A model generated the notes under the pieces. The model had not been told where the DNA came from. It was given only the letters and a program-made list of their open reading frames with translations, and searched no databases. Below are positions 44,348 through 64,000 of a stretch of DNA of 64,000 bases, piece by piece (position 1 is the stretch's first letter; each line of letters begins with the position of its first letter). The position numbers and the translations under genes are program-made. Location of the stretch: NCBI GenBank assembly GCA_023014365.1, contig JAEBUN010000027.1, positions 620,001 to 684,000 of the forward strand. The letters run 5' to 3'. This DNA is from Lepiota brunneoincarnata (taxonomy: Eukaryota > Basidiomycota > Agaricomycetes > Agaricales > Agaricaceae).

Positions 44348-46538
44348 ATGGCATCCAATCCACCCAATGGGCCCTTCCGCGTGCCCGATGGATGGGTTCC
44401 ACCCCAGGGCACTCTGCCGAACACCCATTTCCAGCAGCCCAATCCAACCGACGTCCCTCATTTTCCACCTGACTTATGGGGCAACCCCTACAATGTACCT
44501 ACGTCCCGCTACCCGCAAGCGAAACAGCTACAACCTCCGGATCATCAGCCTAAACGACAGCCGCGCGCGCCTAGTGCCGAGTATCTCGCTACATCGCTCT
44601 CTGACAACCCCCTCGGACTTACAAACATGATCCCGGCGTGCGTCAACCTCAAATTACACTTCTCCACTCAGATTTTAATTCTTTTACAGAGAAGAGCTTG
44701 GACGCCAGCAACAGCAGAACGTCGCTTCTGCTGCTACCCCCTGGATATGGACACCCCGTTCGCTTGAAAGTGAAGACCCCTTACCGCCAGAAAGTGACGA
44801 AGACATCCCGCCGCCAGCTACATTAGACAGAACACGTACGTATAAACGTAGGAACGGGTCTGTTTCAAGGGGGGGGCAACAGGAAACCGCCGCAGATACG
44901 ACGCCCTGGGTATGGGCTCCCCGTCATCTCGAAAACGATGATCCTATCTCATCATCGGATACTGCAGCTGGATCATCGGCTCGTGCCCACGGGCCCAAGC
45001 ATCCTTCTACCATCTATACCCAGCCTGCGGCACGGCCACTCCATACACACCAACCGACAGCGCCGACCGTCTCCTCTGGCCACCCACGTCGCCACGACCG
45101 TCACCACCACGCTGAGTTGAAGTGGTATAATCACCCACCGCCCTCGTCGCAGGGCGATCATGGTCCAAGAGATAGTGATACGAGGAAGGAGCAAGAAAAA
45201 GAGGATGATGAACTTAACCACGATGGTGATTTGCAGAGGGCGGAGGACACAGAAAAGAAAATGACAGAGGCTAGGAAGGAGCTCGAAGTGAATCAAAAGG
45301 CGGAGGATTTGAGTCATAAGGAGAATGCCCTCGTGCGACGCGAGAAGGATATCAAGAATAGGGAGCATGAGTTGGCAAAGATAGAGGAGGGTGTGTGGAG
45401 GAGACAGCGTGAAGTTGGCATCGCGACGCATGGCCTGGATGACCGGGAGAGGGAGCTTACAAATTGGTGGAAGGAGCTGAAGAAGAAGGAGGAAGAGCTA
45501 GAGCACCGTCGGACAACCCTTGAGAGCTGGGAAGAAGTATTGACGAATAGAGAGCGTGAGCTGAAGGGGCGCGATCCCTGGCTGTGGGCCAAGGAGTTTG
45601 CCACAAGTGACGCGGAAACGGAAAGGGAGAAGGAGGGAGGAAAGGGGGGCGTGCTTAGGGTGGTCAAAGCCGTGCTCGAGGATAAGGAATGCTATCGAGC
45701 ATTCCTCAGCGCTACCGGTCGGAAGGCCCAGCAAATGCTGGATATTTTGGATAAGGTCAGATCATCATTACCGCCGGGAATATTGCTAACACAAGTTGAC
45801 AGCTGCTTGTTGATTACACTGGTAGGGCCACCACTAGGCGCTCATTGCTGATGGCCCTGATGCGGCTCTCAACTACATCCGGGTTGTATCCAAAATGTTT
45901 GGTCCTTCATGACATCCGGCATGAAGAGCACCCAATCACTGCGGGCCAATTCGGGGAGATCAGGCGAGGTGCATTCGGGGACCTCCCGGTTTGTCTCAAG
46001 GTCGTGAAGCTGTACCAGCGAGCGCAGATAGACCACCTTCTCAAGGTCCAGTCTTCTAGTAAGCTATGCTCATTGAGTTATTGACATCAACCCAGAGTTG
46101 TGCGAGAGAGGCTATACTCTGGAGTCACCTTGACCACCCTAATCTTCTTCCGTTCTACGGAATATATCGCCTGGGTGATTCGTATGGACGGGTTAGCTTG
46201 GTGTCACCATGGATGGAGAATGGGAATGTTTCCGATTATCTCAAGAACCACCCAAATACACCTCGTATGCCATTGGTATGTACTCACAAGTGTACGAATG
46301 ACCGCATCCACTCACAAGCCATTAACCCCAGATTCATGATATCATGCAAGGCCTCCGTCATCTTCACGGTGAAAACATTGTGCACGGTGACCTAAAAGCG
46401 GTGAGACTTCTAGACGTTTGCTCTTATACACCACTGAGTTCACAGTCGTCGCGAAGGTTAACATTCTCGTAACGTCTTCCGGTAGCGCATGTCTTGCAGA
46501 TTTCGGCCTTTCCTCTGTTATGGATGCGGACATTCTGA
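44348..46538 (+). pseudogene. Coiled-coil protein kinase gene truncated by telomeric repeats
   Basis: The gene starts MASNPPNGPFRVPDGW. Exons are 44348-44637, 44690-45755, 45803-46045, 46096-46275, 46332-46400 and from 46457. The N-terminal part is Pro/Gln-rich with two similar motifs (TPWIWTPRSLE and TPWVWAPRHLE). A long charged coiled coil (about 45180-45560) and a helical segment (FLSATGRKAQQMLDIL) follow. The kinase domain has a degenerate Gly loop (AGQFGEIRRGAF), the VCLKV lysine, REAILWSHLDHPNLLPFYGI, SPWMENGNV, the catalytic HGDLKA...NILV and DFGLSSVM. Coding then stops at GGGTTAGGGG (46539). The activation segment and the whole C-lobe beyond it are gone. This domain arrangement is an expanded Agaricomycete family. 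Confidence 0.88.
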
Positions 46539-46558
46539 GGGTTAGGGGGGTTAGGGGA
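46539..46558 (+). repeat. Telomeric tract at the host/array junction
   Basis: GGGTTAGGGGGG followed by TTAGGGG directly abuts the broken kinase gene. It marks the old chromosome end onto which all later units were added. Confidence 0.9.
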
Positions 46559-46659
46559 GGGGAGTCAATACACGAGTCGCGACGGTGGGGCGCAACGGGC
46601 TGTTGGGGTTTCCAACTGCCCACCCGTTTCGTCTTATAAAAGACTCATCAGGCGCATGA
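46559..46659 (-). mobile_element. Penelope-like unit 1: tail and hammerhead only
   Basis: About 100 bases carrying just the element 3' tail and ribozyme. Homology to the other units ends one base after the ribozyme's outer stem (GCGCA), where telomeric GGGTTAGG begins. It is the oldest insertion of the array by position. Confidence 0.85.
46590..46655 (-). ncRNA. Hammerhead ribozyme, unit 1
   Basis: The minus strand has the CTGATGA core, stem II GTCTTTTATAAGAC, GAAA, stem III CGGGT...GCCCG and the cleavage triplet GTT before GCGC. Stem I is GCGC/GCGC. Two bases of stem III differ from the other units. Confidence 0.88.
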
Positions 46660-47204
46660 GGGTTAGGAAAGGGGGCGTATAAACACGAGTCGCGACGGAG
46701 GGGCGCAACGGGTTGTTGGGGTTTCCAACTACCCACCCGTTTCGTCTTTATAAAGACTCATCAGGCGCACGATATCCGTCAGATACCTGCCGTCCAATCG
46801 ATTGTCGCCGATAGCGATCGATTGCGATTTTGATCGATAGATCAAAATCCGCGGAACGTATTTATAATCCCCCCGTTAATAACAGGTGAAAATAGGATTA
46901 AGAACTTAACTTCGAGTTTCAAAACTTACCGCGCTGACTTAGACACGCGCTTGCGTCTGGAAAAAGTCACGTGATCGTGCGACCGGTCACGTGCCATCGG
47001 GCTATGTTACCCGACAACGGAACAATCCGGGCCGGGGTAGGGCCGTCACGTGACAACGTAACAAGGTGCACTTTCGCACGGGGTCCAAGCGTGAGAACTT
47101 GTGAAACCCGGCACCGGTGACATGATTTACCGGTGGCGGTGTACTTACCTTAGATGGCTATCCTTCCCACGGGTCTGCTAGAGGACGCCCCGCCCGACCG
47201 AGCC
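46660..47204 (-). mobile_element. Penelope-like unit 2: 3' module only
   Basis: It follows GGGTTAGG (46660-46667). It contains the hammerhead, a TATAAATA-type box on the minus strand near 46860, three CACGTG boxes (46968, 46988, 47047), and ends where GGTTAGGGTTAGGG begins, at the position of the element's internal telomere-like tract. No RT gene. Confidence 0.88.
46703..46768 (-). ncRNA. Hammerhead ribozyme, unit 2
   Basis: Same core as the other copies. Stem II is extended to GTCTTTATAAAGAC, fully self-complementary. Confidence 0.92.
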
Positions 47205-47218
47205 GGTTAGGGTTAGGG
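47205..47218 (+). repeat. Telomeric tract between units 2 and 3
   Basis: GGTTAGGGTTAGGG. Confidence 0.88.
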
Positions 47219-47824
47219 AAGGGGGGACTAAAACACGAGTCGCGACGGTGGGGCGCAACGGGTTGTTGGGGTTTCCAACTACCCACCCGTTTCGTCTTAT
47301 AAAGACTCATCAGGCGCACGATATCCGTCAGATACCTGCCGTCCAATCGATTGTCGCCGATAGCGATCGATTGCGATTTTGATCGATAGATCAAAATCCG
47401 CGGAACGTATTTATAATCCCCCCGTTAATAACAGGTGAAAATAGGATTAAAAACTTAACTTCGAGTTTCAAAACTTACCGCGCTGACTTAGACGCGCGCT
47501 TGCGTCTGGGAAAAGTCACGTGATCGTGCGACCGGTCACGTGCCATCGGGCTATGTTACCCGACGACGGAACAATCCGGGCCGGGGTAGGGCCGTCACGT
47601 GACAACGTAACAAGGTGCACTTTCGCACGGGGTCCAAGCGTGAGAACTTGTGAAACCCGGCACCGGTGACATGATTTACCGGTGGCGGTGTACTTACCTT
47701 AGATGGCTATCCTTCCCACGGGTCTGCTAGAGGACGCCCCGCCCGACCGAGCCGGTTAGGTCCGGTTAGGTTCGGGTTCGGGTTAGGGGGTAACATAGTA
47801 TTAGTATGCCGCCTTCGTCGGGAG
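47219..47824 (-). mobile_element. Penelope-like unit 3: 3' module only
   Basis: Nearly identical to unit 2 but extends about 60 bases further, through the internal telomere-like tract (47753-47790), and ends at CGTCGGGAG before the next TTAGGG tract. Confidence 0.88.
47253..47317 (-). ncRNA. Hammerhead ribozyme, unit 3
   Basis: CTGATGA, stem II GTCTTTATAAGAC, GAAA, stem III CGGGT/ACCCG with inner GTTGG/CCAAC, and cleavage triplet GTT. Confidence 0.92.
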
Positions 47825-47844
47825 GGGTTAGGGTTAGGGTTAGG
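47825..47844 (+). repeat. Telomeric tract between units 3 and 4
   Basis: Three full GGGTTA repeats plus GG. Confidence 0.9.
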
Positions 47845-47879
47845 AAAGGGGGCGTATAACACACGAGTCGCGACGGAGG

Positions 47880-47945
47880 GCGCAACGGGTCGTTGGGGTT
47901 TCCAACTACCCACCCGTTTCGTCTTATAAAAGACTCATCAGGCGC
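47880..47945 (-). ncRNA. Hammerhead ribozyme, unit 4
   Basis: CTGATGA core, stem II GTCTTTTATAAGAC, GAAA, stem III CGGGT/ACCCG and GTT cleavage triplet. The inner loop differs from units 2-3 by one base (AACGACCC against AACAACCC). Confidence 0.9.
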
Positions 47946-48904
47946 ACGATGTCCGTCAGACACCTGCCGTCCAATCGATGACCGCGATAGCGGCATCGAT
48001 TGCGAACGTAATCGATCGATAACGTTCCGCGGATCGCGTTATATAATCCCCCGAATAATCGGTGAAACTTAGAGATATAACTTACTATCGGCTTACGTAA
48101 ACCTACCGTACTGACTTTAGCGCGCATGTTGGCGCTGAGAAAAGTCACGTGATCGTGCGACCGGTCACGTGCCATCGGGCTATGTTACCCGACGACGGAA
48201 CAATCCGGGCCGGGGTAGGGCCGTCACGTGACAACGTGGCAAGGTGCACTTTCGCACGGGGTCCAAGCGTGGGAAGCTTGTGAAAGCCGGCACCGGCGAC
48301 ATGAATAACCGGTGGCGGGGTACTTACCTTAGGTGGCTATCCTTCCCACGGGGCTGCTAAAGGACACCCCGCCCGAAACCGCCGGTTAGGTCCGGTTAGG
48401 TTCGGGTTAGGGGGACGCATGGTATTAGTATGCTGTCCTTGTTGGGAAGGTAAGGTAGTACTTACCGCAAAAGCGATCCGCACGGCATATAACCGGCAGA
48501 ATAGCGAGTTAACCGCCACCAGGGATCGAACTTACGTTGTTATCCGTATACGCGACCACTACTAGTTAATAGACTTAGGAAGGGGGCATAACCGCCCCCC
48601 CAGACATGGTTCCGGGTTACGCCGCACCATCACACCCAAACCGATAAAAGGCCACCTATTTAAGAACCTGTTTTCGCGTGCTGCGATCGAAGCGCAGGTC
48701 GTGCAACACCGAAGTCTTCTAACGACGGCGTCCCAGGAAGGTTACTCAAGATCAGCAAATATGGGCCGGCCGACATACGGGAATCACCCCGCAGAGGTCG
48801 GTACCCGAACGCCCAGGGATTTCCCCATTTGGGCGCCGACTTGGTACCAGTCGCCGCAGCCATTGTGCGGACAACTACGGCTGGCATGGTATACCACGTA
48901 AGCC

Positions 48905-51364
48905 TTATCTATCAACGTTGATGATCGCGAGCCACGGATCAGGCGTTTTCTCACGATGGTGTTCTACCGCCGGAGCGGAAGAAGAGGCCACGGGAGCTCG
49001 AGCTTCTTCGCGAAAGAAGTCGGTAATTAACGCCTGGCGGTCGCGCCGCGCGAGAACAGAAGCACGCCAGATTGACGTGAGGTCCATTATTTGCCGGGTT
49101 CTTTTCTTCGAAACCAGCAAACGGCGACCAAAAAGACCGAGCTTATCTAGGCGAAGGAAGGGCCCTTGCCAACCAGAGTCGACACACCAATCTTTCGCAA
49201 CCTCGGACAAGTCGGGCTCATCCTCGGTGCGATCGATCTTAGTGAAGACCTTAGTCAGCTCAGACGCTAACTTCGGGATACCTAGTTTCACCAGATCCAG
49301 GGGTAACGGTACGTTATTCCGGCCCCTGACATCCAGACGGGCGAAGACGTTCATAGCCTGCGCCCAGCCAGTCTTTATACTGTCCTCAAGTTCGTGAGCG
49401 TTGAATAAGTCCCAGGAGATGTTAAATTCGCTCTTTAAGACGAGCACGTCAGCCGCCGGCGGCGAAGACTCCCTAAGCCTCGCATCCCACCGCGCACGGT
49501 AGTTATCTCTTAACCATGCAGCTATTAACATCGGAGGATAGCCACGCGCTATGTAGATATCCGAAGCTTCTCTACAAGCCATCACGTAATCGTCAAAACG
49601 TGAAGAAAGCGTGGCGAGCCTCGACAGCTCACTGCAAAACGTCCCTTTCTTGACGTAAAGCGGGTGAAAGCTGATCCAGGGTATACGCTCAAAATGGTTC
49701 ATCGGTTTTCTATACGCCTTGTGATGGAGGCGACCGTTTGCCGTAAACAGCATCATGTCTAAGAAAACCATGTATTGGTTTGATGATGACCACGTAATGG
49801 TACAATTATCGTACTTAAGATTGTCGGCGAGGAGCCGCAAGGCATCCTCCTCGTGATACGCGTATACGAGTGCCAAACAATCGTCGATGTAGCGTCCGTA
49901 GAACGCCACGTCGGGCGACCGCAGCGCCTCACACTCCAGTTCGAAGTGAAGACCGTAGAGGTTGGCGAGATCGGGGCTTGAAGCGACCCCCATTGCCAGA
50001 CCCCTAGCCTGACGGTAGTATTTGCCCTGGAATTGTACCAGTAAGTTGTCGTCCGCTGCTCGCATGCATTCCCTAAACAGCTGCACTTTCGCTGCTGCAT
50101 GCTCGGCGTCGAAGTCAGTGTCTGCGACTTCGGGTTCCTGTTCCGCTAACCACTGCGTGTAAAAATCCTCAGCGTAGGAGTGTGCTTTTTGGACGTCCAC
50201 GTGGGGATAGAAGGCGACGACGTCACCCGAAACGAGGAAAAGACGCTTAAGCATACCGTTCTCAAACCGGAACTGCGGAAGCGACAACTTGCTTAATTTT
50301 ATCGCCAGATCTTTCGATCCGTGTATAACGTAAGGCGCCGATCTAACGATCGGTTTAAGACTTTTCGAGACATACTTCCCTGCAGGCCCTTGCGGTACGG
50401 AGTGGCACGGTAAAATCGGGCGCGCAGCTACCGGTGTCTTATGTATTTTTGGAATGACATAAAACGTGGGGACGGCCGAAGGCTCGACCGATAGCTGACT
50501 CCGCAAAAAGCGGGGAAGTTGCGATTGGATGCCGTAATCTTCAGCGATCCTCGCGATTCTCTTAATGTGCTCGTTTTTGTTATAAAGTATATTATACGCG
50601 GACTGCGCGCTAACTAATACATAATCGGTATGGTTAGACAGTAACGAGAGTGATTTCTCAACGATCCAGGCACGCGGGGCAACCGCACAACCAAGGTTCT
50701 TATCGGTGGCAACGACGACGAGCTCGTGGGACGTCAGGAAGTCGCGGAGTTTGGCCACAGGGGGAGCAAGCGCGTGCTTGTAACGGTCCCCTTCGTGTTT
50801 GTCTGTTGGCATATCAGAAATCATCTTATCGATGACCCTACGACCACACCAGACGCCGTACTCGAATACCCGATCTAGCTGGTGCATTTCGGCCCGGTTA
50901 GGCTTCGGGCACCAGTAGTCTGGATCGAAGTCGTCTTTAGCATCTTCGGCTTCTGTGGCACGGAACCACATCGACCAACGGAGACGATCGACGAAATCGT
51001 CCCACGCAGAAGTGATCAGTTCGTTCTTCTGCGCAGTCGGGAGCATATACTTCATTCCCGCACTCAGATGCATGCTTAATTCACGCGGTATATCACAGTT
51101 TATCATGTGTATTGTACTACGGTAGCGCATGGACTCTAAAACTACAATAGGAGTCCGTAGTACAATAAATCTGTACGCGTGTTGAGGAGGTACCGTCAGT
51201 AGCCAATCGGGATACGTACTTGGGCGGTCCCAAGCGAAAGGTTTCAGGCTCACCTGTGGAACGAGGGCCGCTAGCACCTCGTCCTCCCTTTCCCCCTCGT
51301 AAAAAGAATGGAAGTCGGGGCCTAACGGCCCCCCTGTCGACCTCCGCGTTTCTTGCCCTTGCCC
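48905..51364 (-). pseudogene. Penelope-like reverse transcriptase, 5'-truncated (copy 1)
   Basis: The frame is open from the telomeric junction to the stop at 48905, about 820 codons. It lacks roughly the first 385 residues of the full copy. All RT motifs are present: ATDKNLG, FYVIPKIHKTP, SGDVVAFYPHVD, GLAMGVASSPDLAN, YGRYIDD and VFLDMML. The GTG at 51277 is an internal codon, not a start. No GIY-YIG endonuclease follows the RT. No frameshift is seen, so the truncation came from incomplete synthesis or end loss, not decay. Confidence 0.9.
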
Positions 51365-51403
51365 GGGGGTTAGGGTTAGGGGGTTTAGGGTTAGGGGTTA
51401 GGG
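51365..51403 (+). repeat. Telomeric tract between units 4 and 5
   Basis: About six TTAGGG-type repeats including GGGGTTTAGGG and TTAGGGG variants; the longest tract of the array. Confidence 0.92.
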
Positions 51404-51438
51404 AAGAAGGAAATATACGACTGAGCCGGTGGACTTGG

Positions 51439-51506
51439 GCGCAACGGGGTCGTAAGTTAGTACGATCACCCACCCGTTTCGTCCTTATATCGGACTCGTC
51501 AGGCGC
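51439..51506 (-). ncRNA. Hammerhead ribozyme, unit 5 (family B)
   Basis: Core CTGACGA with stem II GTCC/GGAC in place of GTCTT/AAGAC, GAAA, stem III CGGG/CCCG with inner TCGT/ACGA, and the GTT cleavage triplet. Both strands of stems II and III changed together relative to family A. Confidence 0.92.
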
Positions 51507-51652
51507 ACGATTAGTCCATCAGACTTACCATCCGTCCAATCGGAAAGCGTTCCGGGCTTACCGATCGGGATTGCGACATTTGCTGTGCAATCCGTGGAAC
51601 AGCTTACTTAACGAAGCTAAAAATAACTCACATTTTTCACCGAGGGAATATG

Positions 51653-51689
51653 CACGTGACCACGTGATCACGCTGAGAAAAATCACGTG
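51653..51689. promoter_or_regulatory. CACGTG cluster in unit 5, upstream of truncated RT copy 1
   Basis: Three CACGTG palindromes in 37 bases. They lie on the upstream side of the RT gene at 48905-51364, as expected for a promoter supplied by the distal neighbour. Confidence 0.5.
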
Positions 51690-51784
51690 ACCGTGGGAAC
51701 TTACACGGGCGACTAACTCCGCGGAAGTCGGACTTCCCACGGGGTCGGGGAAGGGGGGACTAAAACACGAGTCGCGACGGTGGG

Positions 51785-51849
51785 GCGCAACGGGTTGTTG
51801 GGGTTTCCAACTACCCACCCGTTTCGTCTTATAAAGACTCATCAGGCGC
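51785..51849 (-). ncRNA. Hammerhead ribozyme, unit 6
   Basis: Identical core and stems to unit 3. Confidence 0.92.
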
Positions 51850-52820
51850 ACGATATCCGTCAGATACCTGCCGTCCAATCGATTGTCGCCGATAGCGATC
51901 GATTGCGATTTTGATCGATAGATCAAAATCCGCGGAACGTATTTATAATCCCCCCGTTAATAACAGGTGAAAATAGGATTAAAAACTTAACTTCGAGTTT
52001 CAAAACTTACCGCGCTGACTTAGACGCGCGCTTGCGTCTGGGAAAAGTCACGTGATCGTGCGACCGGTCACGTGCCATCGGGCTATGTTACCCGACGACG
52101 GAACAATCCGGGCCGGGGTAGGGCCGTCACGTGACAACGTAACAAGGTGCACTTTCGCACGGGGTCCAAGCGTGAGAACTTGTGAAACCCGGCACCGGCG
52201 ACATGATTTGCCGGTGGCGGTGTACTTACCTTAGATGGCTATCCTTCCCACGGGTCTGCTAGAGGACGCCCCGCCCGACCGAGCCGGTTAGGTCCGGTTA
52301 GGTTCGGGTTCGGGTTAGGGGGTAACATAGTATTAGTATGCCGCCCTCGTCGGGAAGGTAAGGTAGTACTTACCGCAAAGAACGCTCCGCACGGCATATA
52401 ACCGGCGTTTTAAAGCGAGTTAACCGCCATCAGGGGTCGAACTTACGTTGTTTACCGTTTACGCGAGAGTTACTATTCGAGAGACTTAGGAAGGGGGCAT
52501 AACCGCCCCCCCAGACATGGTTCCGGGTTACGCCGCACCATCACACCCAAACCGATAAAAGGCCACCTATTTAAAAACCTGTTTTCGCGTGCTGCGATCG
52601 AAGCGCAGGTCGTGCAACCCCGAAGTCTTCTAACAACGGGGTCCCAGGAAGGTTACTCAAGATCAGCAAATATGGGCCGGCCGACATACGGGAATCACCC
52701 CGCAGAGGTCGGTACCCGAACGCCCAGGGATTTCCCCATGTGGGCGCCGACTTGGTACCAGTCGCCGCAGCTAGGTTGTGCGGACAACTACGGCTGGCAT
52801 GGTATACCACGTAAGCCATA

Positions 52821-53307
52821 TCAATCGAAGTTCGCAATCGCGATCCACGGATCAGGCGTCTTCTCACGGTGGTGTTCTACCGCCGGAGCGGAAGAAGAGG
52901 CCACGGGAGCTCGAGCTTCGGCGAAGAAGTCGGTTATTAACGCCTGGCGGTCGCGCCGCGCGAGAACAGAAGCACGCCAAATTGACGTAAGGTCCATTAT
53001 CTGTCGGGTTCTTTTCTTCGAGACCAACAGACGGCGACCGAAGAGACCGAGTCTATCTAGGCGTAAGAAGGGTCCTTGCCAACCCGAATCTAAACACCAA
53101 TCCTTTGCACACTCCGCCAAGTCAGCCTCGGCTTCAGCACGCGGGATCTTAGTAAAGAGACGCATCAGTTCGGACGCCTTCTTAGGGATACCTAGTTTGG
53201 TCAGATCGTACGGAAGCGGTACGTTATTCCGCCCCCGAACGTCTGCACGGGCGAAGACATTCATTGCCTGCGCCCACCCAGTCTTCATACTGTCCTCAAG
53301 TTCGTGA
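52821..53307 (-). pseudogene. Penelope-like RT C-terminal fragment (copy 2)
   Basis: Residues from HELEDSMKTGWAQAMN to the C-terminal PDPWIAIANFD, nearly identical to the intact copy. The RT catalytic motifs are all missing. Upstream of 53307 the frame runs into telomeric repeats, so any start codon there would be spurious. Confidence 0.9.
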
Positions 53308-53328
53308 GGGGTTGGGTTAGGGTTAGGG
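53308..53328 (+). repeat. Telomeric tract between units 6 and 7
   Basis: GGGGTTGGGTTAGGGTTAGGG, including one TTGGG variant. Confidence 0.88.
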
Positions 53329-53603
53329 AAGAAGGAAATATACGACTGAGCCGGTGGACTTGGGCGCAACGGGGTCGTAAGTTAGTACGATCACCCACCC
53401 GTTTCGTCCTTATATCGGACTCGTCAGGCGCACGATTAGTCCATCAGACTTACCATCCGTCCAATCGGAAAACGTTCCGGGCTTACCGATCGGGATTGCG
53501 ACATTTGCTGTGCAATCCGTGGAACAGCTTACTTAACGAAGCTAAAAATAACTCACATTTTTCACCGAGGGAATATGCACGTGACCACGTGATCACGCTG
53601 AGA
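53329..53603 (-). mobile_element. Penelope-like unit 7 (family B), short 3' module
   Basis: Nearly identical to unit 5 over its length but ends about 75 bases earlier, right after CACGTGATCACGCTGAGA. Confidence 0.87.
53364..53431 (-). ncRNA. Hammerhead ribozyme, unit 7 (family B)
   Basis: Same as unit 5: CTGACGA, GTCC/GGAC stem II, GAAA, CGGG/CCCG stem III. Confidence 0.92.
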
Positions 53604-53637
53604 GGGTTAGGGGTTAGGGTTAGGGTTAGGGGTTAGG
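53604..53637 (+). repeat. Telomeric tract between units 7 and 8
   Basis: Five to six repeats, TTAGGGG and TTAGGG mixed. Confidence 0.92.
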
Positions 53638-53672
53638 AAAGGGGGCGTATAAACACGAGTCGCGACGGAGGG

Positions 53673-53737
53673 GCGCAACGGGTTGTTGGGGTTTCCAACT
53701 ACCCACCCGTTTCGTCTTATAAAGACTCATCAGGCGC
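53673..53737 (-). ncRNA. Hammerhead ribozyme, unit 8
   Basis: Minus strand: GCGC, CTGATGA, GTCTT-TAT-AAGAC, GAAA, CGGGT...GTTGG...CCAAC...ACCCG, TT, GCGC. All conserved hammerhead core bases are present. Cleavage is predicted after the second T of GTT. Confidence 0.93.
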
Positions 53738-54708
53738 ACGATATCCGTCAGATACCTGCCGTCCAATCGATTGTCGCCGATAGCGATCGATTGCGATTTT
53801 GATCGATAGATCAAAATCCGCGGAACGTATTTATAATCCCCCCGTTAATAACAGGTGAAAATAGGATTAAAAACTTAACTTCGAGTTTCAAAACTTACCG
53901 CGCTGACTTAGACGCGCGCTTGCGTCTGGGAAAAGTCACGTGATCGTGCGACCGGTCACGTGCCATCGGGCTATGTTACCCGACGACGGAACAATCCGGG
54001 CCGGGGTAGGGCCGTCACGTGACAACGTAACAAGGTGCACTTTCGCACGGGGTCCAAGCGTGAGAACTTGTGAAACCCGGCACCGGTGACATGATTTACC
54101 GGTGGCGGTGTACTTACCTTAGATGGCTATCCTTCCCACGGGTCTGCTAGAGGACGCCCCGCCCGACCGAGCCGGTTAGGTCCGGTTAGGTTCGGGTTCG
54201 GGTTAGGGGGTAACATAGTATTAGTATGCCGCCCTCGTCAGGAAGGTAAGGTAGTACTTACCGCAAAGAACGCTCCGCACGGCATATAACCGGCGTTTTA
54301 AAGCGAGTTAACCGCCATCAGGGGTCGAACTTACGTTGTTTACCGTTTACGCGAAAGTTACTATTCGAAAGACTTAGGAAGGGGGCATAACCGCCCCCCC
54401 AGACGTGGTTCCGGGTTACGCCGCACCATCACACCCAAACCGATAAAAGGCCACCTATTTAAAAACCTGTTTTCGCGTGCTGCGATCGAAGCGCAGGTCG
54501 TGCAACCCCGAAGTCTTCTAACAACGGGGTCCCAGGAAGGTTACTCAAGATCAGCAAATATGGGCCGGCCGACATACGGGAATCACCCCGCAGAGGTCGG
54601 TACCCGAACGCCCAGGGATTTCCCCATTTGGGCGCCGACTTGGTACCAGTCGCCGCAGCTAGGTTGTGCGGACAACTACGGCTGGCATGGTATACCACGT
54701 AAGCCATA

Positions 54709-57700
54709 TCAATCGAAGTTCGCAATCGCGATCCACGGATCAGGCGTTTTCTCACGGTGGTGTTCTACCGCCGGAGCGGAGGAAGAGGCCACGGGAGCTC
54801 GAGCTTCGGCGAAGAAGTCGGTTATTAACGCCTGGCGGTCGCGCCGCGCGAGAACAGAAGCACGCCAAATTGACGTAAGGTCCATTATCTGTCGGGTTCT
54901 TTTCTTCGAAACCAACAGACGGCGACCGAAGAGACCGAGTCTATCTAGGCGTAAGAAAGGTCCTTGCCAACCCGAATCTAAACACCAATCCTTTGCACAC
55001 TCCGCCAAGTCAGCCTCGGCTTCAGCACGCGGGATCTTAGTAAAGAGACGCATCAACTCAGACGCCTTCTTAGGGATACCTAGTTTGGTCAGATCGTACG
55101 GAAGCGGTACGTTATTCCGCCCCCGGACGTCTGCACGGGCGAAGACATTCATTGCCTGCGCCCACCCAGTCTTCATACTGTCCTCAAGTTCGTGAGCATT
55201 AAACATGTCCCAGGATATGTTGTATTCGCTTTTTAGCACAAGCACGCCATTCGCTGGCGGTACGGACTCCCTTAGCCGTACGTCCCAACGTGCTCGGTAG
55301 TTATCGCGAAGCCAAGCGGCGATCAACAATGGAGGGTAGCCACGCGCAATGTAGATATCCGAAGCTTCTCTACATGCCTTCACGTAATCGTCGAAACGCG
55401 AAGAAAGCGCGGCAAGCCTCGACAGCTCTGATACAAACGTCCCTTTCTTAACGTAAAGGGGGTGAAAGCTGATCCAAGGAATGCGCTCAAAGTGGTTCAT
55501 CGGTTTCCTATACGCCTTATGGTGGAGGCGACCGTTTGCCGTAAACAGCATCATGTCTAGGAACACCATGTATTGATCCGAAGATGACCACGTAATGGTA
55601 CAGTTATCGAACATTAAATTATCTCTGAGTAGCCGCAAAGCATCCTCCTCTCGATACGCATACACGAGAGCGAGACAATCGTCGATGTAGCGTCCATAGA
55701 ACGCCACGTCGGGTGACCGCAGGGCTGCGCACTCCTCCTCGAAGTGTACGCCGTAGATGTTCGCGAGATCGGGGCTCGAAGCCACACCCATCGCTAGACC
55801 ACGGGCCTGACGGTAATATTTACCCTGGAACTGTACCAGTAAGTTGTCGTCCGCTGCCCGCATGCATTCCCGTAACAGCTGTACTTTAGCTGCTGCATGC
55901 GTTGCGTCGAAGTCAGCATCTTCGACTTCCGGCTCTGACTCGGCTAACCACCGGGTGTAATATTCTTCGGCATAGGAGTGTGCCTTTTGAACATCCACAT
56001 GTGGGTAGAACGCGACAACGTCGCCCGAGACAAAGTATAGACGCTTGAGCATACCGTTCTCGAATCGGAACTGCGGTAGCGACAACTTGCTCAATTTTAT
56101 CGCCAGATCCTTAGATCCATGTATAACGTACGGCGCCGATTGGATAATCGGTTTGAGACTTTTACTTACGTACTTCCCTGCAGGCCCTTGCGGGACGGAG
56201 TGGCACGGTAGAATCGGCCGGGCAGCTACCGGTGTCTTATGTATTTTAGGAATGACATAAAACGTCGGGATCGAACTAGGTTCGACCGATAACTGACTCC
56301 GGAGGAAGCGGGGAAGCTGCGATTGAATGCCGAAATCTTCCGACAATCTCGCGATGCTCTTAATGTGGTTATTTTTATCACAAAGTATATTGTACGCCGT
56401 AACGGCGCTAACCGGTTCGTAATCTACACGGTTCGACAATAACGAGAGCGCTTTTTCAATGATCCAGGCACGCGGGGCAACTGCGCAACCAAGGTTCTTA
56501 TCGGTCGCTACTACGACGAGTTCGTGGGACGTCAAGTAGTCGCGGAGTTTGGCCACCGGGGGAGCAAGCGCGTGCTTGTAACGGTCCCCTTCGTGTTCAT
56601 CTGTCGGCATATCAGAAACCATTTTATCAATGGCCCTACGACCGCACCAGATACCATACTCAAAAACCCTATCCAACTGGTGCATCGCGACGCGGTTAGG
56701 CTTCGGCGACCAGTAGTCTGGATCAAAGTCGTCTTTAGCATCTTCGGCGTCAGTGGCTTTGAACCACATCGACCAACGGAGACGATCGACGAAATCGTCC
56801 CAAGCCGAATTGATTAGACTCACGTTCGACTTAGTCGGGAGCATATACTTCATTCCCGCACTCAGATGCATGCTGTATTCACGCGGTATATCACAGTTAA
56901 TCATGTGTATTGTGCTACGGTAACGCATGGACTCTAGAACTACTACAGGAGTCCGTAACACAATAAATCTGTACGCGTGTTGAGGGGTAACCGTCAGTAA
57001 CCAATCCGGATACGTACTGGGTCGAGACCAGTCGAAGGGTTTAGGACTAACCTTTGGAAAGAGGGCCGCATGCACCTCTTCCTCCCCTTCGCCCTCATAA
57101 AATGGGAGGAGGCGGGGGACTAGTTCCCCCTCGATCTGCCTCCGCGTTTCCCGCCCCTGCCGGCGCCTCGCTTTCGTCGGCCTCCACGATTGGACGACCC
57201 CGAGGGGGCCGCCGCTGTCGCTTCCTCCTTCGCGCGGGCTCCTGCTCCTTTCTTGGTCGCAGGGGTCTTCTGATAAGAAAGAAAGTAGATCGGGATGAGT
57301 ATGAATATCAGACGCGTGGATCGAGTACGCATTCACCTTGTCCCCTTTCTTCTCCTTGGCCTTGAGGAGAGCGGTTACCCGCTTGTCGACCATCTGCGCG
57401 ATGGACTCAGCGGTGATGGCGGGCGCGGTCGACGGGCCAGCGGCTTCATCGACCTCCATCTCAAAACTCTCCTTCAACGCCTTCTTCTTTTCCATCTTCG
57501 CCTCCTCCGCGATAATCTGATCCTCGACGAAGGCAACGGCCCGTCCGAAGATGGCGGGGACGTCTTCGAGCAGCTCGACGTACTCCCTGAGGATAGAAGG
57601 ATCCTCTCTCCATCCGATTTTCACAGGATGCCCATGCGAGTCAGCGGTGGGCGCGCCGTATCGAACGACCTGACTCTTGTGTCGGATTCGGTCAAAGACC

Positions 57701-58311
57701 TTACCGAGAGAGCCCTGGATTGCTTCCCAGAGTGGGCTCTCAGTCACCCCGGCAACGGGCGACAGAGTCAGCTGTGCCTCCAAGAAGGAGAGCTCGGCAC
57801 GCTTGTGGGCAATGCCTCTCGTCAGCTCAGCCTTTCGGTAAGCGACATCGCTCTCCGTAAACGCCGCAACAGCTTGCGGGTTCTCGGAGATATAAGACTT
57901 GGTGAACGCAAACGGCGTCCGCCTAGCCTTAAGCTCGGATGGGAACGTACCCGAGGTCTGGTGCTCCTCCAAGCGACGGAGGGACACCTTACAGGTCTCA
58001 ACCTGGCGGCGGGTTTTCATGCCCTCCACCAGGTACGGACGCAGAGCATCCCTGTAAGACCCCGGCATACATGCCAGGAGGTCGGCAAGCGATGCAGCAG
58101 CCCTAATGGGCGCGCGGCGAGCCGACCCGAGTTGTGTCTCTGACACCGAGACCTCTCCGGTCGCGGCGTCGTGGCGCAGGCCGCCAAGCGATCGGGTGAC
58201 CGCGAGGGCGACCGAGGCAGCCGGAGACGCAGCACGTACACGGGCCCGCGAGGACCCGGCAGTGCCGCCGCCAGTCGAGGATCCCGCCTTTTTGTTGTTA
58301 CGAGGGGGCAT
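54709..58311 (-). CDS. Penelope-like (Coprina-type) reverse transcriptase, full length
   Basis: 1200 aa without introns. Residues 1-80 are basic, Ser/Ala/Gly-rich. About 100-320 is helical and charged, with a likely coiled coil near 255-285 (EEAKMEKKKALKE). Residues 355-400 are Arg/Ser-rich (possible nuclear targeting). The RT core spans about 590-960: ATDKNLG (602-608), VIPKIHKTP (686-694), SGDVVAFYPHVD (762-773, first catalytic Asp), GLAMGVASSP (838-847), YIDD (875-878, catalytic pair), VFLDMM (916-921) and YRKPMNHFERIP. An alpha-rich extension of about 230 residues follows, with no GIY-YIG motif. The family is related to telomerase RT and, without a nuclease, is thought to prime on exposed telomeric 3' ends. 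Start ATG 58311 is the first after the telomeric junction. Confidence 0.93.
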   Translation of the reverse strand: MPPRNNKKAGSSTGGGTAGSSRARVRAASPAASVALAVTRSLGGLRHDAATGEVSVSETQLGSARRAPIRAAASLADLLACMPGSYRDALRPYLVEGMKTRRQVETCKVSLRRLEEHQTSGTFPSELKARRTPFAFTKSYISENPQAVAAFTESDVAYRKAELTRGIAHKRAELSFLEAQLTLSPVAGVTESPLWEAIQGSLGKVFDRIRHKSQVVRYGAPTADSHGHPVKIGWREDPSILREYVELLEDVPAIFGRAVAFVEDQIIAEEAKMEKKKALKESFEMEVDEAAGPSTAPAITAESIAQMVDKRVTALLKAKEKKGDKVNAYSIHASDIHTHPDLLSFLSEDPCDQERSRSPREGGSDSGGPLGVVQSWRPTKARRRQGRETRRQIEGELVPRLLPFYEGEGEEEVHAALFPKVSPKPFDWSRPSTYPDWLLTVTPQHAYRFIVLRTPVVVLESMRYRSTIHMINCDIPREYSMHLSAGMKYMLPTKSNVSLINSAWDDFVDRLRWSMWFKATDAEDAKDDFDPDYWSPKPNRVAMHQLDRVFEYGIWCGRRAIDKMVSDMPTDEHEGDRYKHALAPPVAKLRDYLTSHELVVVATDKNLGCAVAPRAWIIEKALSLLSNRVDYEPVSAVTAYNILCDKNNHIKSIARLSEDFGIQSQLPRFLRSQLSVEPSSIPTFYVIPKIHKTPVAARPILPCHSVPQGPAGKYVSKSLKPIIQSAPYVIHGSKDLAIKLSKLSLPQFRFENGMLKRLYFVSGDVVAFYPHVDVQKAHSYAEEYYTRWLAESEPEVEDADFDATHAAAKVQLLRECMRAADDNLLVQFQGKYYRQARGLAMGVASSPDLANIYGVHFEEECAALRSPDVAFYGRYIDDCLALVYAYREEDALRLLRDNLMFDNCTITWSSSDQYMVFLDMMLFTANGRLHHKAYRKPMNHFERIPWISFHPLYVKKGTFVSELSRLAALSSRFDDYVKACREASDIYIARGYPPLLIAAWLRDNYRARWDVRLRESVPPANGVLVLKSEYNISWDMFNAHELEDSMKTGWAQAMNVFARADVRGRNNVPLPYDLTKLGIPKKASELMRLFTKIPRAEAEADLAECAKDWCLDSGWQGPFLRLDRLGLFGRRLLVSKKRTRQIMDLTSIWRASVLARRDRQALITDFFAEARAPVASSSAPAVEHHREKTPDPWIAIANFD

Positions 58312-58358
58312 TGCGGGGGATCGGGGGAGGTCGAGAGAGTTGTTGGCTCTGAAATGTG

Positions 58359-58370
58359 TTTAGGGTTAGG
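58359..58370 (+). repeat. Telomeric tract between units 8 and 9
   Basis: TTTAGGGTTAGG, short, 48 bases upstream of the intact RT start codon. Confidence 0.85.
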
Positions 58371-58405
58371 AAAGGGGGCGTATAAACACGAGTCGCGACG
58401 GAGGG

Positions 58406-58470
58406 GCGCAACGGGTTGTTGGGGTTTCCAACTACCCACCCGTTTCGTCTTATAAAGACTCATCAGGCGC
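58406..58470 (-). ncRNA. Hammerhead ribozyme, unit 9 (in the 5' leader of the intact RT gene)
   Basis: Identical stems to unit 8. Predicted cleavage near 58409-58410 would leave an RT mRNA with about 100 bases before its ATG, including the CCCTAA-type junction. Confidence 0.92.
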
Positions 58471-58560
58471 ACGATATCCGTCAGATACCTGCCGTCCAAT
58501 CGATTGTCGCCGATAGCGATCGATTGCGATTTTGATCGATAGATCAAAATCCGCGGAACG

Positions 58561-58754
58561 TATTTATAATCCCCCCGTTAATAACAGGTGAAAATAGGAT
58601 TAAAAACTTAACTTCGAGTTTCAAAACTTACCGCGCTGACTTAGACGCGCGCTTGCGTCTGGGAAAAGTCACGTGATCGTGCGACCGGTCACGTGCCATC
58701 GGGCTATGTTACCCGACGACGGAACAATCCGGGCCGGGGTAGGGCCGTCACGTG
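58561..58754 (-). promoter_or_regulatory. Putative promoter for the intact RT gene, located in unit 9
   Basis: Three CACGTG palindromes (58670-58675, 58690-58695, 58749-58754; the outer two are TCACGTGA) precede TATAAATA on the minus strand (58568-58561). In transcription order these come before the hammerhead (58470-58406), the telomeric junction and the ATG at 58311. Spacing fits a TATA-driven start near 58530. CACGTG is the usual site of bHLH factors such as Cbf1. Confidence 0.55.
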
Positions 58755-58970
58755 ACAACGTAACAAGGTGCACTTTCGCACGGGGTCCAAGCGTGAGAAC
58801 TTGTGAAACCCGGCACCGGTGACATGATTTACCGGTGGCGGTGTACTTACCTTAGATGGCTATCCTTCCCACGGGTCTGCTAGAGGACGCCCCGCCCGAC
58901 CGAGCCGGTTAGGTCCGGTTAGGTTCGGGTTCGGAAAAGGGGAGCTCAAATACACGAGTCGCGACGGAGG

Positions 58971-59035
58971 GCGCAACGGGTTGTTGGGGTTTCCAACTAC
59001 CCACCCGTTTCGTCTTATAAAGACTCATCAGGCGC
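58971..59035 (-). ncRNA. Hammerhead ribozyme, unit 10
   Basis: Same core and stems as unit 8, although the surrounding sequence is diverged. Confidence 0.92.
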
Positions 59036-60001
59036 ACGATATCCGTCAGATACCTGCCGTCCAATCGATGGTCGCCGATAGCGATCGACTGCGATCGGTT
59101 ACTTGCGTAACGCGATCCGCGGAACGTGTATGTAATCCCCCCATCAAATGGGTGAAAATAGATTAAATACTTATCGTCGAGTTTCAAAACCGTCGCCGTG
59201 CTGACTTTGGCGCGCGCTTACGCCTGAGAAAAGTCACGTGATCGTGCGACCGGTCACGTGCCATCGGGCTATGTTACCCGACGACGGAACAATCCGGGCC
59301 GGGGTAGGGCCGTCACGTGACAACGCAACAAGGTGCACTTTCGCACGGGGTCCAAGCGTGGGAGACTTGTGAAACCCGGCACCGGGGACATGAATACCCG
59401 GTGGCGGTGTACTTACCTTAGGTGGCTTTCCTTCCCACGGGTCTGCTAGAGTACGCCCCGCCCGACCGGGACGGTTAGGTCCGGGTTAGGTCAGGGTTAG
59501 GGGTGAGCTTAGTATTAGTAAGCCGCACTCGTTGGGAAGGTAAGGTAGTACTTACCGCAAAGAACGTTCCGCACGGCATATAACCGGCGAAAGAGCGAGT
59601 TAACCGCCACCAGGGGGAGAACTTGCGTTGTTTACCGTTTGACGCGAGAGCTACTTTTCGAGAGACTTAGGAAGGAGGCATAACCGCCCCCCCAGACGTG
59701 GTTCCGGGTTACGCCGCACCATCACACCCAAACCGATAAAAGGCCACCTATTTAAAAACCTGTTTTCGCGTGCTGCGATCGAAGCGCAGGTCGTGCAACC
59801 CCGAAGTCTTCTAACAACGGGGTCCCAGGAAGGTTACTCAAGATCAGCAAATATGGGCCGGCCGACATACGGGAATCACCCCGCAGAGGTCGGTACCCGA
59901 ACGCCCAGGGATTTCCCCATTTGGGCGCCGACTTGGTACCAGTCGCCGCAGCTAGGTTGTGCGGACAACTACGGCTGGCATGGTATACCACGTAAGCCAT
60001 A

Positions 60002-62921
60002 TCAATCGAAGTTCGCAATCGCGATCCACGGATCAGGCGTCTTCTCACGATGGTGTTCTACCGCCGGAGCGGAAGAAGAGGCCACGGGAGCTCGAGCTTC
60101 TGCGAAGAAGTCGGTTATTAACGCCTGGCGGTCGCGCCGCGCGAGGACGGAAGCACGCCAGATTGACGTGAGATCCATTATCTGTCGGGTTCTTTTCTTC
60201 GAAACCAACAGACGTCGACCAAAAAGACCGAGTTTATCTAGCCGCAAAAAAGGTCCTTGCCAACCCTCGTCTAAACACCAATCCTTTGCACACTCCGCCA
60301 AGTCAGCCTCGGCTTCAGCACGCGGGATCTTAGTAAAGAGTCGCATCAGCTCAAACGCCTTCTTGGGAAGGCCTAGTTTCACAAGGTTATACGGGAGCGG
60401 GACGTTACGCTGCCCCCGCATATCGAGTCGGGCGAAGGTGTTCATAGCCTGCGCCCACCCGGTCTTAATCGCGTCCTCAAGTTCTTGAGCGTTGAACATA
60501 TCCCAGGAGACGTTGTATTCGCTTTTCAGCACGAGTACGCCATTCGCTGGCGGTACGGACTCCCTAAGCCGTACATCCCAACGTACTCGGTAGTTATCAC
60601 GGAGCCAAGCCGCGATCAACGTCGGAGGGTAGCCGCGCGCGATGTAGATATCCGAAGCTTCTCTACACGCCATCACGTAATCGTTAAAACGCGATGAGAG
60701 CGCGGCGAGCCTCGATAGCTCCGAAACGAACGTGCCTTTCTTCACGTATAACGGATGGAAGCTAATCCAGGGTATGCGCTCGAAGTGGTTCATCGGCTTC
60801 CTATACGGCTTATGTTCAAGCCGACCGTTTGCCGTAAACAGCATCATGTCAAGGAAGACCATAAATTGATCCGAAGATGACCACGTAATAGTACAGTTAT
60901 CGAATCTAAGATTGTCGCTAAGTAAGCTCAACGCGTCCTTCTCGTTATACGCATAAACGAGTGCGAGGCAATCATCGATGTAGCGACCGTAGTACGCCAC
61001 GTCAGGGGACCGGAGGGCGTCGCACTTCTCCTCGAAGTATACGCCGTAGAGGTTCGCTAGGTCGGGGCTTGACGCCACCCCCATCGCGAGCCCACGGGCC
61101 TGCCGGTAATATTTCCCTTGGAACTGCACTAATAAGTTGTCGTCCGCTGCCCGCATGCATTCCCGTAACAGCTGTACTTTAGCTGCTGCACGCGTTGCGT
61201 CGAAGTCGGTATCATCGACCTCTGGCTCGGCCTCGGCTAACCAACGGGTGTAGTACTCTTCGGCAAAGGAGTGTGCCTTTTGTACATCCACGTGGGGATA
61301 GAAAGCGACAACGTCGCCCGAGACAAAGTATAAGCGCTTAAGCATACCGTTCTCGAATCGGAACTGCGGTAGCGACAACTTGCTCAATTTTATCGCCAGG
61401 TCTTTTGAACCATGAATAACGTACGGCGCCGATTGAATGATCGGTTTGAGACTTTTGGAAACATACTTCCCTGCAGGCCCTTGCGGTACGGAGTGGCACG
61501 GTAAAATCGGCCGGGCAGCCACCGGTGTCTTATGTATTTTAGGAATGACATAAAACGTCGGGATAGAGCTAGGCTCCACCGACAGCTGACTCCGAAAGAA
61601 GCGGGGAAGTTGCGATTGAATGGCGTAATCTTCCGACATTCTCGCGATGGACTTAATATGTTCGTTTTTATTATAAAGTATATTATACGCCGTAGTGGCG
61701 CTAACCGGCTCGTAATCTACACGGTTAGATAACAACGACAATGCCTTGTCAATGATCCAGGCACGCGGGGCAACTGCGCAACCAAGGTTCTTATCGGTCG
61801 CTACTACGACGAGTTCGTGGGACGTCAAGTAGTCGCGGAGTTTGGCCACCGGGGGAGCAAGTGCGTGCTGATGACGGTCCCCCACGTGTTCGTCTGTCGG
61901 CATATCAGAAACCATTTTATCAATGGCCCTACGACCGCACCAGACACCATACTCAAATACCCTGTCCAACTGGTGCATCGCGACGCGGTTAGGCTTCGGC
62001 GACCAGTAGTCTGGATCAAAGTCGTCTTCTGCATCTTCGGCATCAGTGGCGCGAAACCACGTGGACCAACGGAGACGATCGACGAAATCGTCCCAAGCGG
62101 AGTTAATTAATTCATCACGCCGCTTAGTCGGGATCATATACTTAAGTCCCGCACTCAGATGCATCGCTATCTCACGCGGTATATCGCAGGAAATCATATG
62201 TATTGTACTACGGTAACGCATGGACTCTAGAACTACAACAGGAGTCCGTAGTACAATAAACCTGTACGCGTGTTGAGGGGTAACCGTCAGTAGCCAGTCC
62301 GGGTACGTGCTGGGGTGAGCCCAGTCGAAGGGTTTAGGACTAACCTTTGGAAAGAGGGCCGCTTGCACCTCCTCCTCCCCTTCGCCCTCGTAAAAGGGAT
62401 GAGAGCGGGGGATCAGTTCCCCCTCGTTCGCCCTCCTCTTTTCCCGCCCCTGCCGGCGCCTCGCTTGCGTCGTTGGTTGTCTTTGGGGGCCGGAGCCGCC
62501 GTGACTTCCTCCTTCGCGCGTGCGCCCGCTCCTTTCTTGGTCGCAGGGGACTTCTGTTAAGATAGAAAGTAAATCGGGGTAAGCATGAAGATCAGACGCG
62601 TGTAACGAATACGCGTTCACCTTCCCCTCTTTCTTCTCCTTGCCCTTCAGGATAGCGGCTACCCGCTTGTCGACCATTTGAGCGATCGATTCGGCGGTGA
62701 TGGTGGGAGCGGTCGACGGGCCAGCGGCTTCATCAACCTCCATCTCAAAACTCTCCTTCAGGGCCTTCTTTTTCTCCATCTTCGCCTCTTCCGCGAGTAT
62801 CTGATCGTCGACGAAAGAAACGGCCCGATCGAAGATGGCGGGAGTGTCTTCAAGAACTTCGACGAACTCCCGGAGGATAGAAGGATCCTCCCTCCATCCG
62901 AGCTGAACAGGACGCCCGTGC
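60002..62921 (-). pseudogene. Penelope-like reverse transcriptase, 5'-truncated (copy 4)
   Basis: Open from the telomeric junction. The first residues, HGRPVQLGWREDPSILREF, correspond to residue 227 onward of the full copy. The ATG at 62779 is internal. RT motifs are intact (ATDKNLG, IPKIHKTP, SGDVVAFYPHVD, GLAMGVASSPDLAN, YYGRYIDD, VFLDMML). It differs from copy 3 by scattered substitutions with no frameshift, so it was probably functional before end loss or incomplete synthesis. Confidence 0.9.
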
Positions 62922-62940
62922 TTAGGGTTAGGGTTAGGGG
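62922..62940 (+). repeat. Telomeric tract between units 10 and 11
   Basis: TTAGGGTTAGGGTTAGGGG. Confidence 0.9.
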
Positions 62941-62972
62941 AGGAGGAAATATACGACGGCGAGCGTGGACGG

Positions 62973-63037
62973 GCGCAACGGGGTCGTTAGTATTAAACGA
63001 TCCCACCCGTTTCGTCTTATAAAGACTCGTCAGGCGC
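62973..63037 (-). ncRNA. Hammerhead ribozyme, unit 11 (family C)
   Basis: Core CTGACGA, stem II GTCTT/AAGAC, GAAA, stem III CGGG/CCCG with inner TCGTT/AACGA, cleavage triplet GTT, stem I GCGC/GCGC. Confidence 0.92.
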
Positions 63038-63180
63038 ACGATTAGTCCACAGACTCTTACCTGCCCGACCAATCGGAAGACTTACACTTATCTTACCGAT
63101 CGGGAAGCACAGTGGCTGTGCATTCCGCGGAACACTTAATAATTAAAGTTATAACTCACTTATTTCACCGAGGGAAAAAT

Positions 63181-63215
63181 CACGTGCCCAGGAATCACGT
63201 GGAGAAAATCACGTG
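63181..63215. promoter_or_regulatory. CACGTG cluster in unit 11
   Basis: Three CACGTG motifs at 63181, 63196 and 63210, upstream of the truncated RT of unit 10. The surrounding sequence is little conserved with families A and B, yet the triple box is kept. Confidence 0.5.
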
Positions 63216-64000
63216 ACCGTGGGAAGAAACATCGGGCGACTAACTCCGATGGAATCGGACTTCACACGGGGTCGGGCTTACCTCAGCACATAGGTCCGAG
63301 TGCCTTCCAAAAGACTTACAGATCCGCCCTAACCGGGGTTCTCACGCTACCGTAGGAAATCGCACATGACTCCGGGCCGACAGGCCCGGGTGAGTTATTA
63401 ATAGGACATGACGTACCTATTAGCGCACACATACCAAAGTGGTTGATCTTCGCACGGTCCTAAAGAGGAAGCCCCTTCCTACGCCACCCCGAGCGAGCGC
63501 AAAGTACGGGCTCGGTTAGGTTTCGGTTAGGGTTAGGGGGGTTCCCACGGTTAGTGTGGGTCCTCTCTGATGCGAAGGTAAGATATGTGCTTACCGCAAA
63601 AGTTCCGCGTCGGGCGGCGACCGCAAAAACGGCGCCCACCACAAGGTGTGAAGTTGGGGATCTACCCTGGACTTACGGTCGATTCTCGGCCTCTCAGTAA
63701 ACGTACTTAGGGGGGACGGCCATCGGTAGGCGGGTCCCTTTCAATAGAGGTTCCTGCGGTCCGCTGCACCAGCGCTCCCTACCGATAAATGGCCACCACT
63801 TGAAATCCTGTTTTCGCGTGCCGGCTCTCGAAGTCCGGGTCGTGCAGAGCGAAGTCTTCAAACAACGCCCCCCAGGCAGGTTACCAAGATCAGTTTTTAC
63901 GGGCCCCGCCGACGTCAGTCAATCACGACCAACGCCGGTCCGCAGCAATGGCTAGGTTTCCCATAACGCCAAAGGACTTAGCCGATTGTGGACGCGCAAT

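Follow-up and report, generated by a model that had tools for sequence, protein, structure and literature searches.

Endonuclease-deficient Penelope-like retroelements, Athena and Coprina, were reportedly described from rotifers, fungi and protists by Gladyshev and Arkhipova in 2007. Penelope-like and telomerase reverse transcriptases (RTs) share a common ancestry, and the use of chromosome ends by endonuclease-free retroelements bears on the origin of telomerase. The stretch considered here (the window) comprises 64,000 nucleotides of Lepiota brunneoincarnata contig JAEBUN010000027.1 (C22:620001-684000), in an assembly of 55.6 Mb and 95 contigs, and from position 46540 outwards it carries an array of Penelope-like units. 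This array is very probably a stack of endonuclease-lacking, telomere-associated elements of the Coprina/Athena kind, laid down on a once-broken chromosome end by repeated telomere-primed reverse transcription.

Passages of an earlier account state that elements deficient in the endonuclease use exposed chromosome termini or breaks for priming, that their truncated 5' ends receive telomere repeats, and that fungi have only this subclass of Penelope-like elements (PMC3846280). The Lepiota elements share with Athena and Coprina, as portrayed in those passages, an RT without a GIY-YIG nuclease, a location largely at chromosome ends and telomere repeats on truncated 5' ends; in contrast to what is told there, the present family is from Agaricales, and the point at which a host gene is broken is mapped exactly, its unbroken counterpart being in the same assembly. 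Assignment to the Coprina/Athena kind is judged from these features, the nearest named relatives being Agaricus and Leucoagaricus proteins among the matches listed. The terminons of Adineta vaga are described, in parts of PMC6431247, as carrying a 3' hammerhead followed by the reverse complement of the telomeric repeat, as forming head-to-tail arrays and as being 5'-truncated by short telomere tracts. The Lepiota units resemble them in the 3' hammerhead and telomere-complementary end, the head-to-tail arrangement and the 5' truncation with telomere tracts; however, terminons reach 40 kb with accessory open reading frames (ORFs), whereas the present units measure 4.7-5.3 kb with a single long ORF per full-length unit, and they are not classed as terminons.

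Telomere-linked Penelope-like elements have also been reported in Agaricus bisporus (PMC7473861), whose RTs are the closest named relatives among the matches listed (48-60% identity); the unit-level dissection, the hammerheads and the breakpoint pair given here do not figure in the passages of that paper on A. bisporus. In Drosophila, HeT-A, TART and TAHRE likewise add retroelement sequence to chromosome ends (PMC5537684), but these are non-LTR elements of a fly without telomerase, whereas in Lepiota a telomerase domain and TTAGGG repeats persist, which sets its elements apart from replacement-type systems. Terminal direct repeats (pLTR) and a hammerhead are present, as in Penelope-like elements generally. 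The mechanism is already published for rotifers and stated for fungi, and the present case is a very clear new example; what it seems to add is the broken/unbroken pair and a peak of 5' ends in a pLTR tract. The literature searched, which omits most subscription journals, yielded no description of such arrays in this fungus, an absence that hence says little. The genome offers a readable record, with one locus in two states, dozens of different junctions and five telomeres on truncated units, and chromosome-end healing by these elements becomes directly testable in a mushroom.

Units and junctions of the array

Eleven hammerhead-bearing units, all on the minus strand, lie between 46540 and 64000, matching the number and the inward-facing 3' ends proposed in the initial annotation. 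That annotation was right about the array but closed it at the window edge, and it extends 28.6 kb further, to the contig end at C22:712570 (window-equivalent 92570), with 20 units in total. The intact 3' end of each unit is on the inner side, and the outer 5' end is usually truncated and followed by telomere repeats. A-type units, the reference type, consist of a 4733-bp body plus pLTR; B-type units are short, and C-type units are ~69% identical to A in the RT region.

The host/array junction tract, GGTTAGGGGGGTTAGGGG (46540-46557), leads into unit 1 (46558-46659), an A-type 3' end with its hammerhead, 5'-truncated at reference 112. Unit 2 (46660-47206) consists of GGGTTAGG and A-type sequence reaching 5' to reference 551, where the terminal repeat has its telomere-like tract, and unit 3 (47207-47827) of TTAGGGTTAGGG and A-type sequence ending at reference 617. 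The diverged A-type unit 4 (47828-51369; 85%) has a telomere tract at 47828-47844, an RT ORF fragment at 48905-51277 and a truncation at reference 3532. It is followed by unit 5 (51370-51740), a short B-type with a telomere tract at 51370-51403, by unit 6 (51741-53311), A-type and truncated at reference 1567 inside the RT ORF, with a G-rich junction at 51741-51750, and by unit 7 (53312-53606), a B-type truncated at ~280 nt behind a telomere tract at 53312-53328. Unit 8 (53607-58358) has a telomere tract at 53607-53637 and the full-length A element body of the 4733-bp unit. Farther out are unit 10 (58943-62921), A-type (~89%), truncated at reference 4008, with an ORF at 60002-62779 and no TTAGGG of its own at the junction, and unit 11 (62922-64000), a C-type with a telomere tract at 62922-62940 that runs on past the window to ~66875.

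What had been counted as unit 9 (58359-58942, minus strand, outer boundary within 58924-58942) belongs to unit 8 as its 5' terminal repeat, since other copies show both the 4733-bp spacing and this junction, which has 14 matches in the loci retrieved (some of which overlap). Eleven independent additions were therefore rejected, one boundary being the internal pLTR boundary of a full-length element, and the window records at most ten. The 5' pLTR of unit 8 is 99.5% identical to its own 3' pLTR over 580 nt, and three further full-length copies on C22 match unit 8 at 99.8, 99.9 and 97.9% identity. Its ORF (54709-58311, minus strand) encodes a 1200-aa Penelope-like RT, matched at 100% across its whole length on three further contigs (C46, C62, C83).

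The RT genes were said to lack GIY-YIG, and this holds: the domain has no match in three window proteins at E up to 1, nor in an alignment set of 39 proteins (two from the window) at E up to 0.01. The element RTs carry motifs that resemble those of Penelope. In the modelled RT domain, telomerase is the best match and the predicted fold is telomerase-like; no Penelope structure is among the best 50 matches listed in either of two fold searches, and a sequence-profile search of PDB gave no telomerase or Penelope match.

TTAGG or TTAGGG stands at the host junction and at eight of the ten inner boundaries within the window, as first annotated; in seven of these eight a full TTAGGG lies within 40 nt of the unit anchor, the boundary at 46660 having only GGGTTAGG. 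The two with neither are 51741-51750 (GGGGTCGGGG) and one in 58924-58942 (between GTTCGG and AAAAGGGG), the latter adjoining the telomere-like tract of the preceding pLTR. Over the whole array, TTAGGG occurs within 40 nt upstream in 16 of the 20 units, whereas 20,000 random placements average 0.66 such units and never exceed 5. Forward and reverse copies of the motif number 31 and 5 in the part of the array inside the window, versus 10 and 8 in the 46.5 kb of host DNA. Taking every TTAGGG tract as a unit boundary was rejected, since some, such as 47754-47790 and 63527-63541, are internal to the element and come back at fixed positions.

The junction tracts are irregular and 9-56 nt long, unit-end G-run included. 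Among 69 distinct 100-nt junction contexts from all retrieved loci, a non-random sample chosen partly via a 3'-end search, TTAGG occurs within 45 nt in 67 and TTAGGG in 58; contexts count as distinct on any base difference, some are near-duplicates, interstitial copies, host junctions or internal pLTR boundaries, and a few owe their TTAGG to the preceding pLTR. The register of unit and tract is fixed, ~40 nt past the predicted hammerhead cleavage site, its commonest form being TTAGG followed directly by AAAGG, as it would be if CCTAAC were part of the RNA tail.

Against the full-length A copy as reference, A-type units start on the inner side within a few bases of reference 1, and their outer ends vary (reference 112, 551, 617, 3532, 1567, 4008, 1941, 1529, 2220 and others). 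After stripping of the tracts, 5' ends were mappable in 49 of 66 contexts of 140 nt, including 40 A-type ends: four are the internal pLTR boundary, ten fall in 536-590 (0.46 expected if uniform over the unit) and the remaining 26 spread between 76 and 4008. The peak at 536-590 lies in the internal telomere-like tract of the pLTR (54174-54210, minus strand; GGTTAGGTCCGGTTAGGTTCGGGTTCGGGTTAGGGGG on the plus strand). It fits a common 5' end of the RNA, because full-length copies and solo pLTRs alike stop there; such a peak may also arise by recombination inside the tract or by resection that reaches it.

A kinase gene in two states

The array abuts the final part of a host protein kinase gene (46063-46539, plus strand), cut inside the kinase domain at 46539. 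Pfam PF07714 matches 46063-46392 (E 1.7e-5), and the 50 codons at 46391-46540 alone give no Pfam match. On another contig, C83, the first 168 bases (C83:1-168) are identical to window 46372-46539, the last 168 host bases before the break; past them, C22 continues with TTAGGG and unit 1, and C83 with the remaining kinase exons, where Pfam places kinase sequence across the break (L092:20-319) and beyond it (L092:361-570), a stop coming next. An array begins on C83 as well, near C83:1571 and ~1 kb beyond the kinase stop, with GGGTTAGGG and a B unit. Each of two host stretches tested occurs once in the assembly, leaving aside the 168 bases in common and weaker paralogues or repeats, and a third, 4-7 kb upstream, is likewise single-copy. 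From the shared bases and the single-copy host DNA, the two contigs therefore represent one locus with two differently capped ends, 1.4 kb apart.

The pair is consistent with terminal loss and capping, and the two states may be those of two nuclei or of a mixed culture. No target duplication is present at the pair, where distal DNA was lost rather than interrupted by an insertion; an internal insertion with target duplication was rejected for the array, as the host sequence missing past the C22 break is present on C83. Insertion by a trans-supplied endonuclease into telomere repeats already in place, as in SART/TRAS or other telomere-targeted retrotransposons, would agree with the telomere repeats found on both sides of most units. 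It is nonetheless highly improbable, given tracts so short and irregular, and given that host DNA meets the array at the breakpoint via a short tract only, with host sequence lost there; an endonuclease domain was not found in the element proteins, and no search was made for a trans-acting one. The 168-base overlap at the start of C83 resembles an assembly-graph branch, and left contig ends lack long telomere repeats, as might be expected if repeats had been collapsed or misjoined and the fork were an artefact of assembly. That explanation is extremely improbable, with the same anatomy on many contigs with different flanks, precise junctions and units in register.

Distribution among contig ends

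The hammerhead pattern occurs at 184 sites genome-wide (129 forward, 55 reverse). With contig ends taken as stand-ins for chromosome ends, location and orientation were counted for 100 of these (contigs up to C53): 99 fall in the outermost 50 kb of their contig, and every one of the 100 has the strand that its nearer end predicts; these 50-kb margins amount to 1.7 of the 15.8 Mb in the 17 contigs concerned. Sites with the B/C spelling number 41 in the whole genome; one of them, C83:1653, is nearer the left end yet oriented right, on a contig that starts in host DNA.

The interstitial exception is a solo copy of pLTR length (~550 bp) on C5, 159 kb inside (~770-1322 of L071, C5:158000-160500), flanked by non-element sequence and with two telomere units at its 3' end; it is perhaps an internal break patched by the same machinery. 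Further exceptions are two short copies amid non-element sequence near the ends of C7 and C8. Similar non-element sequence borders both the start of the C35 array (L052) and the C5 copy (L071), and this repeat may be a recurrent capture site.

Runs of five TTAGGG occur only at the right ends of C16, C20, C45, C62 and C79, all five sitting directly on a truncated element. The 42 runs of four are confined to nine contigs that bear elements, and one run lies 19 nt from the end of C37. These long runs are forward only (29 of five repeats and 42 of four, none in reverse), though left ends bear element arrays; trimming of contig ends is the sole explanation offered and may account for this. At 11 other array starts examined, TTAGGG joins non-element DNA in seven (C20, C37, C42, C45, C46, C53, C78), the join is G-rich without TTAGGG in C16 and C35, and C62 and C79 are uninformative, their sequence being cut inside the element. 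The sequence just inside the C42 array (C42:289947-290137) has copies 97-100% identical on C71, C45, C89, C21, C83 and C73, within 12 kb of a contig end in the five of known length (all but C89), and may belong to a subtelomeric gene family. Subtelomeric RecQ helicases are mentioned for A. bisporus var. burnettii in passages of PMC7473861.

Copying or exchange between ends also shapes the stacks, judging from at least four junctions that recur elsewhere (C22/C37, C46/C53 twice, and C71 in tandem). C22:686879-694573 and C37:348158-355850, for instance, share a run of units with spacings of 1968, 4737/4735 and 588 and one identical junction, which suggests exchange or copying between these chromosome ends. 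Together with the two junctions common to C46 and C53, and with three of the four full-length C22 copies being 99.7-99.9% identical (97.8-97.9% for the fourth), this raises the idea that stacks arose mainly via recombination or break-induced replication among ends sharing a few old arrays, and not by new reverse transcription. Such an origin is improbable, as the 36 mapped A-type ends (internal pLTR boundary excluded) fall at ~30 positions, the five outermost units under terminal telomeres each have a different truncation point, and the arrays begin in differing non-element sequences. The stack as a record of successive priming events, as it was originally read, holds for the most part, with recombination or copying acting as well.

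Hammerhead and proposed route of addition

A type-I-like hammerhead motif lies in unit 8 (53671-53744, minus strand) and has equivalents in all eleven units, among others at 46588-46662, 46701-46775, 47251-47324, 47878-47952, 51437-51513 and 62971-63044, on the same strand. It would stand at the RNA 3' end and reads GCGC-CUGANGA-GUCY...RGAC-GAAA-CGGG...CCCG-UU^GCGC; all eight distinct copies agree fully in the core and in stems I and III, and stem II has one compensated pair. Covariation is slight (1 of 13 pairs compensated; 79 of 500 shuffles as high), so the ribozyme call rests on conservation of the core. Rfam matches the window array to its type III hammerhead eight times, each time under the gathering cut-off (best 35.6 vs 48.5; E 0.00019). 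The type III placement was set aside in favour of the type-I-like reading, which takes in the whole conserved core and follows the rules for hammerheads.

Repeated priming on G-rich ends, as originally put forward, has good support in the scattered 5' truncations with telomere repeats, the intact 3' ends on the inner side, the orientation of the listed sites and the locus with two caps. In such a process, the element would be transcribed from a putative start in the pLTR, toward the centromere, and the RNA would end with the hammerhead and, ~40 nt on, a short CCTAACC tail. This tail could pair either with the G-rich 3' overhang of TTAGGG repeats or with a few repeats that telomerase had previously put on a broken end, and the paired 3' end would serve as primer for the RT of the element. 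Synthesis would either break off at any point, which leaves a truncated copy, or proceed to the RNA 5' end, placed in the pLTR's telomere-like tract, and the new end would then receive TTAGGG from telomerase, ready for the next round.

The telomerase RNA-binding domain has two matches above cut-off on C2, one with an internal stop. Because this domain is encoded and TTAGGG caps five contig ends, replacement of telomerase by the element is not supported by what the genome appears to encode, and the suggestion that the stack represents transposon-assisted telomere maintenance goes beyond the evidence; the element may have an accessory role. A more speculative proposal, which we hold only tentatively, is that the element acts as a two-ended telomere adaptor, with a telomere-complementary 3' tail next to the hammerhead and a 5' end in the pLTR tract, so that a complete copy would seed both telomerase and the next copy; the fungus would in effect heal broken ends with it, and C22 and C83 would show the same end in two states, each from different nuclei or cells of the sequenced culture.

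In the host part of the window, the ArgJ gene has its nearest named match in Agaricus bisporus (78%), and the other named matches listed for the window fall mostly in Agaricales. A 338-aa ORF on the minus strand (5024-6040) resembles, by eye, a Tc1/mariner-type transposase. Tandem repeats lie at 12588-13021 and 13875-14167, with periods of 147 and 128.
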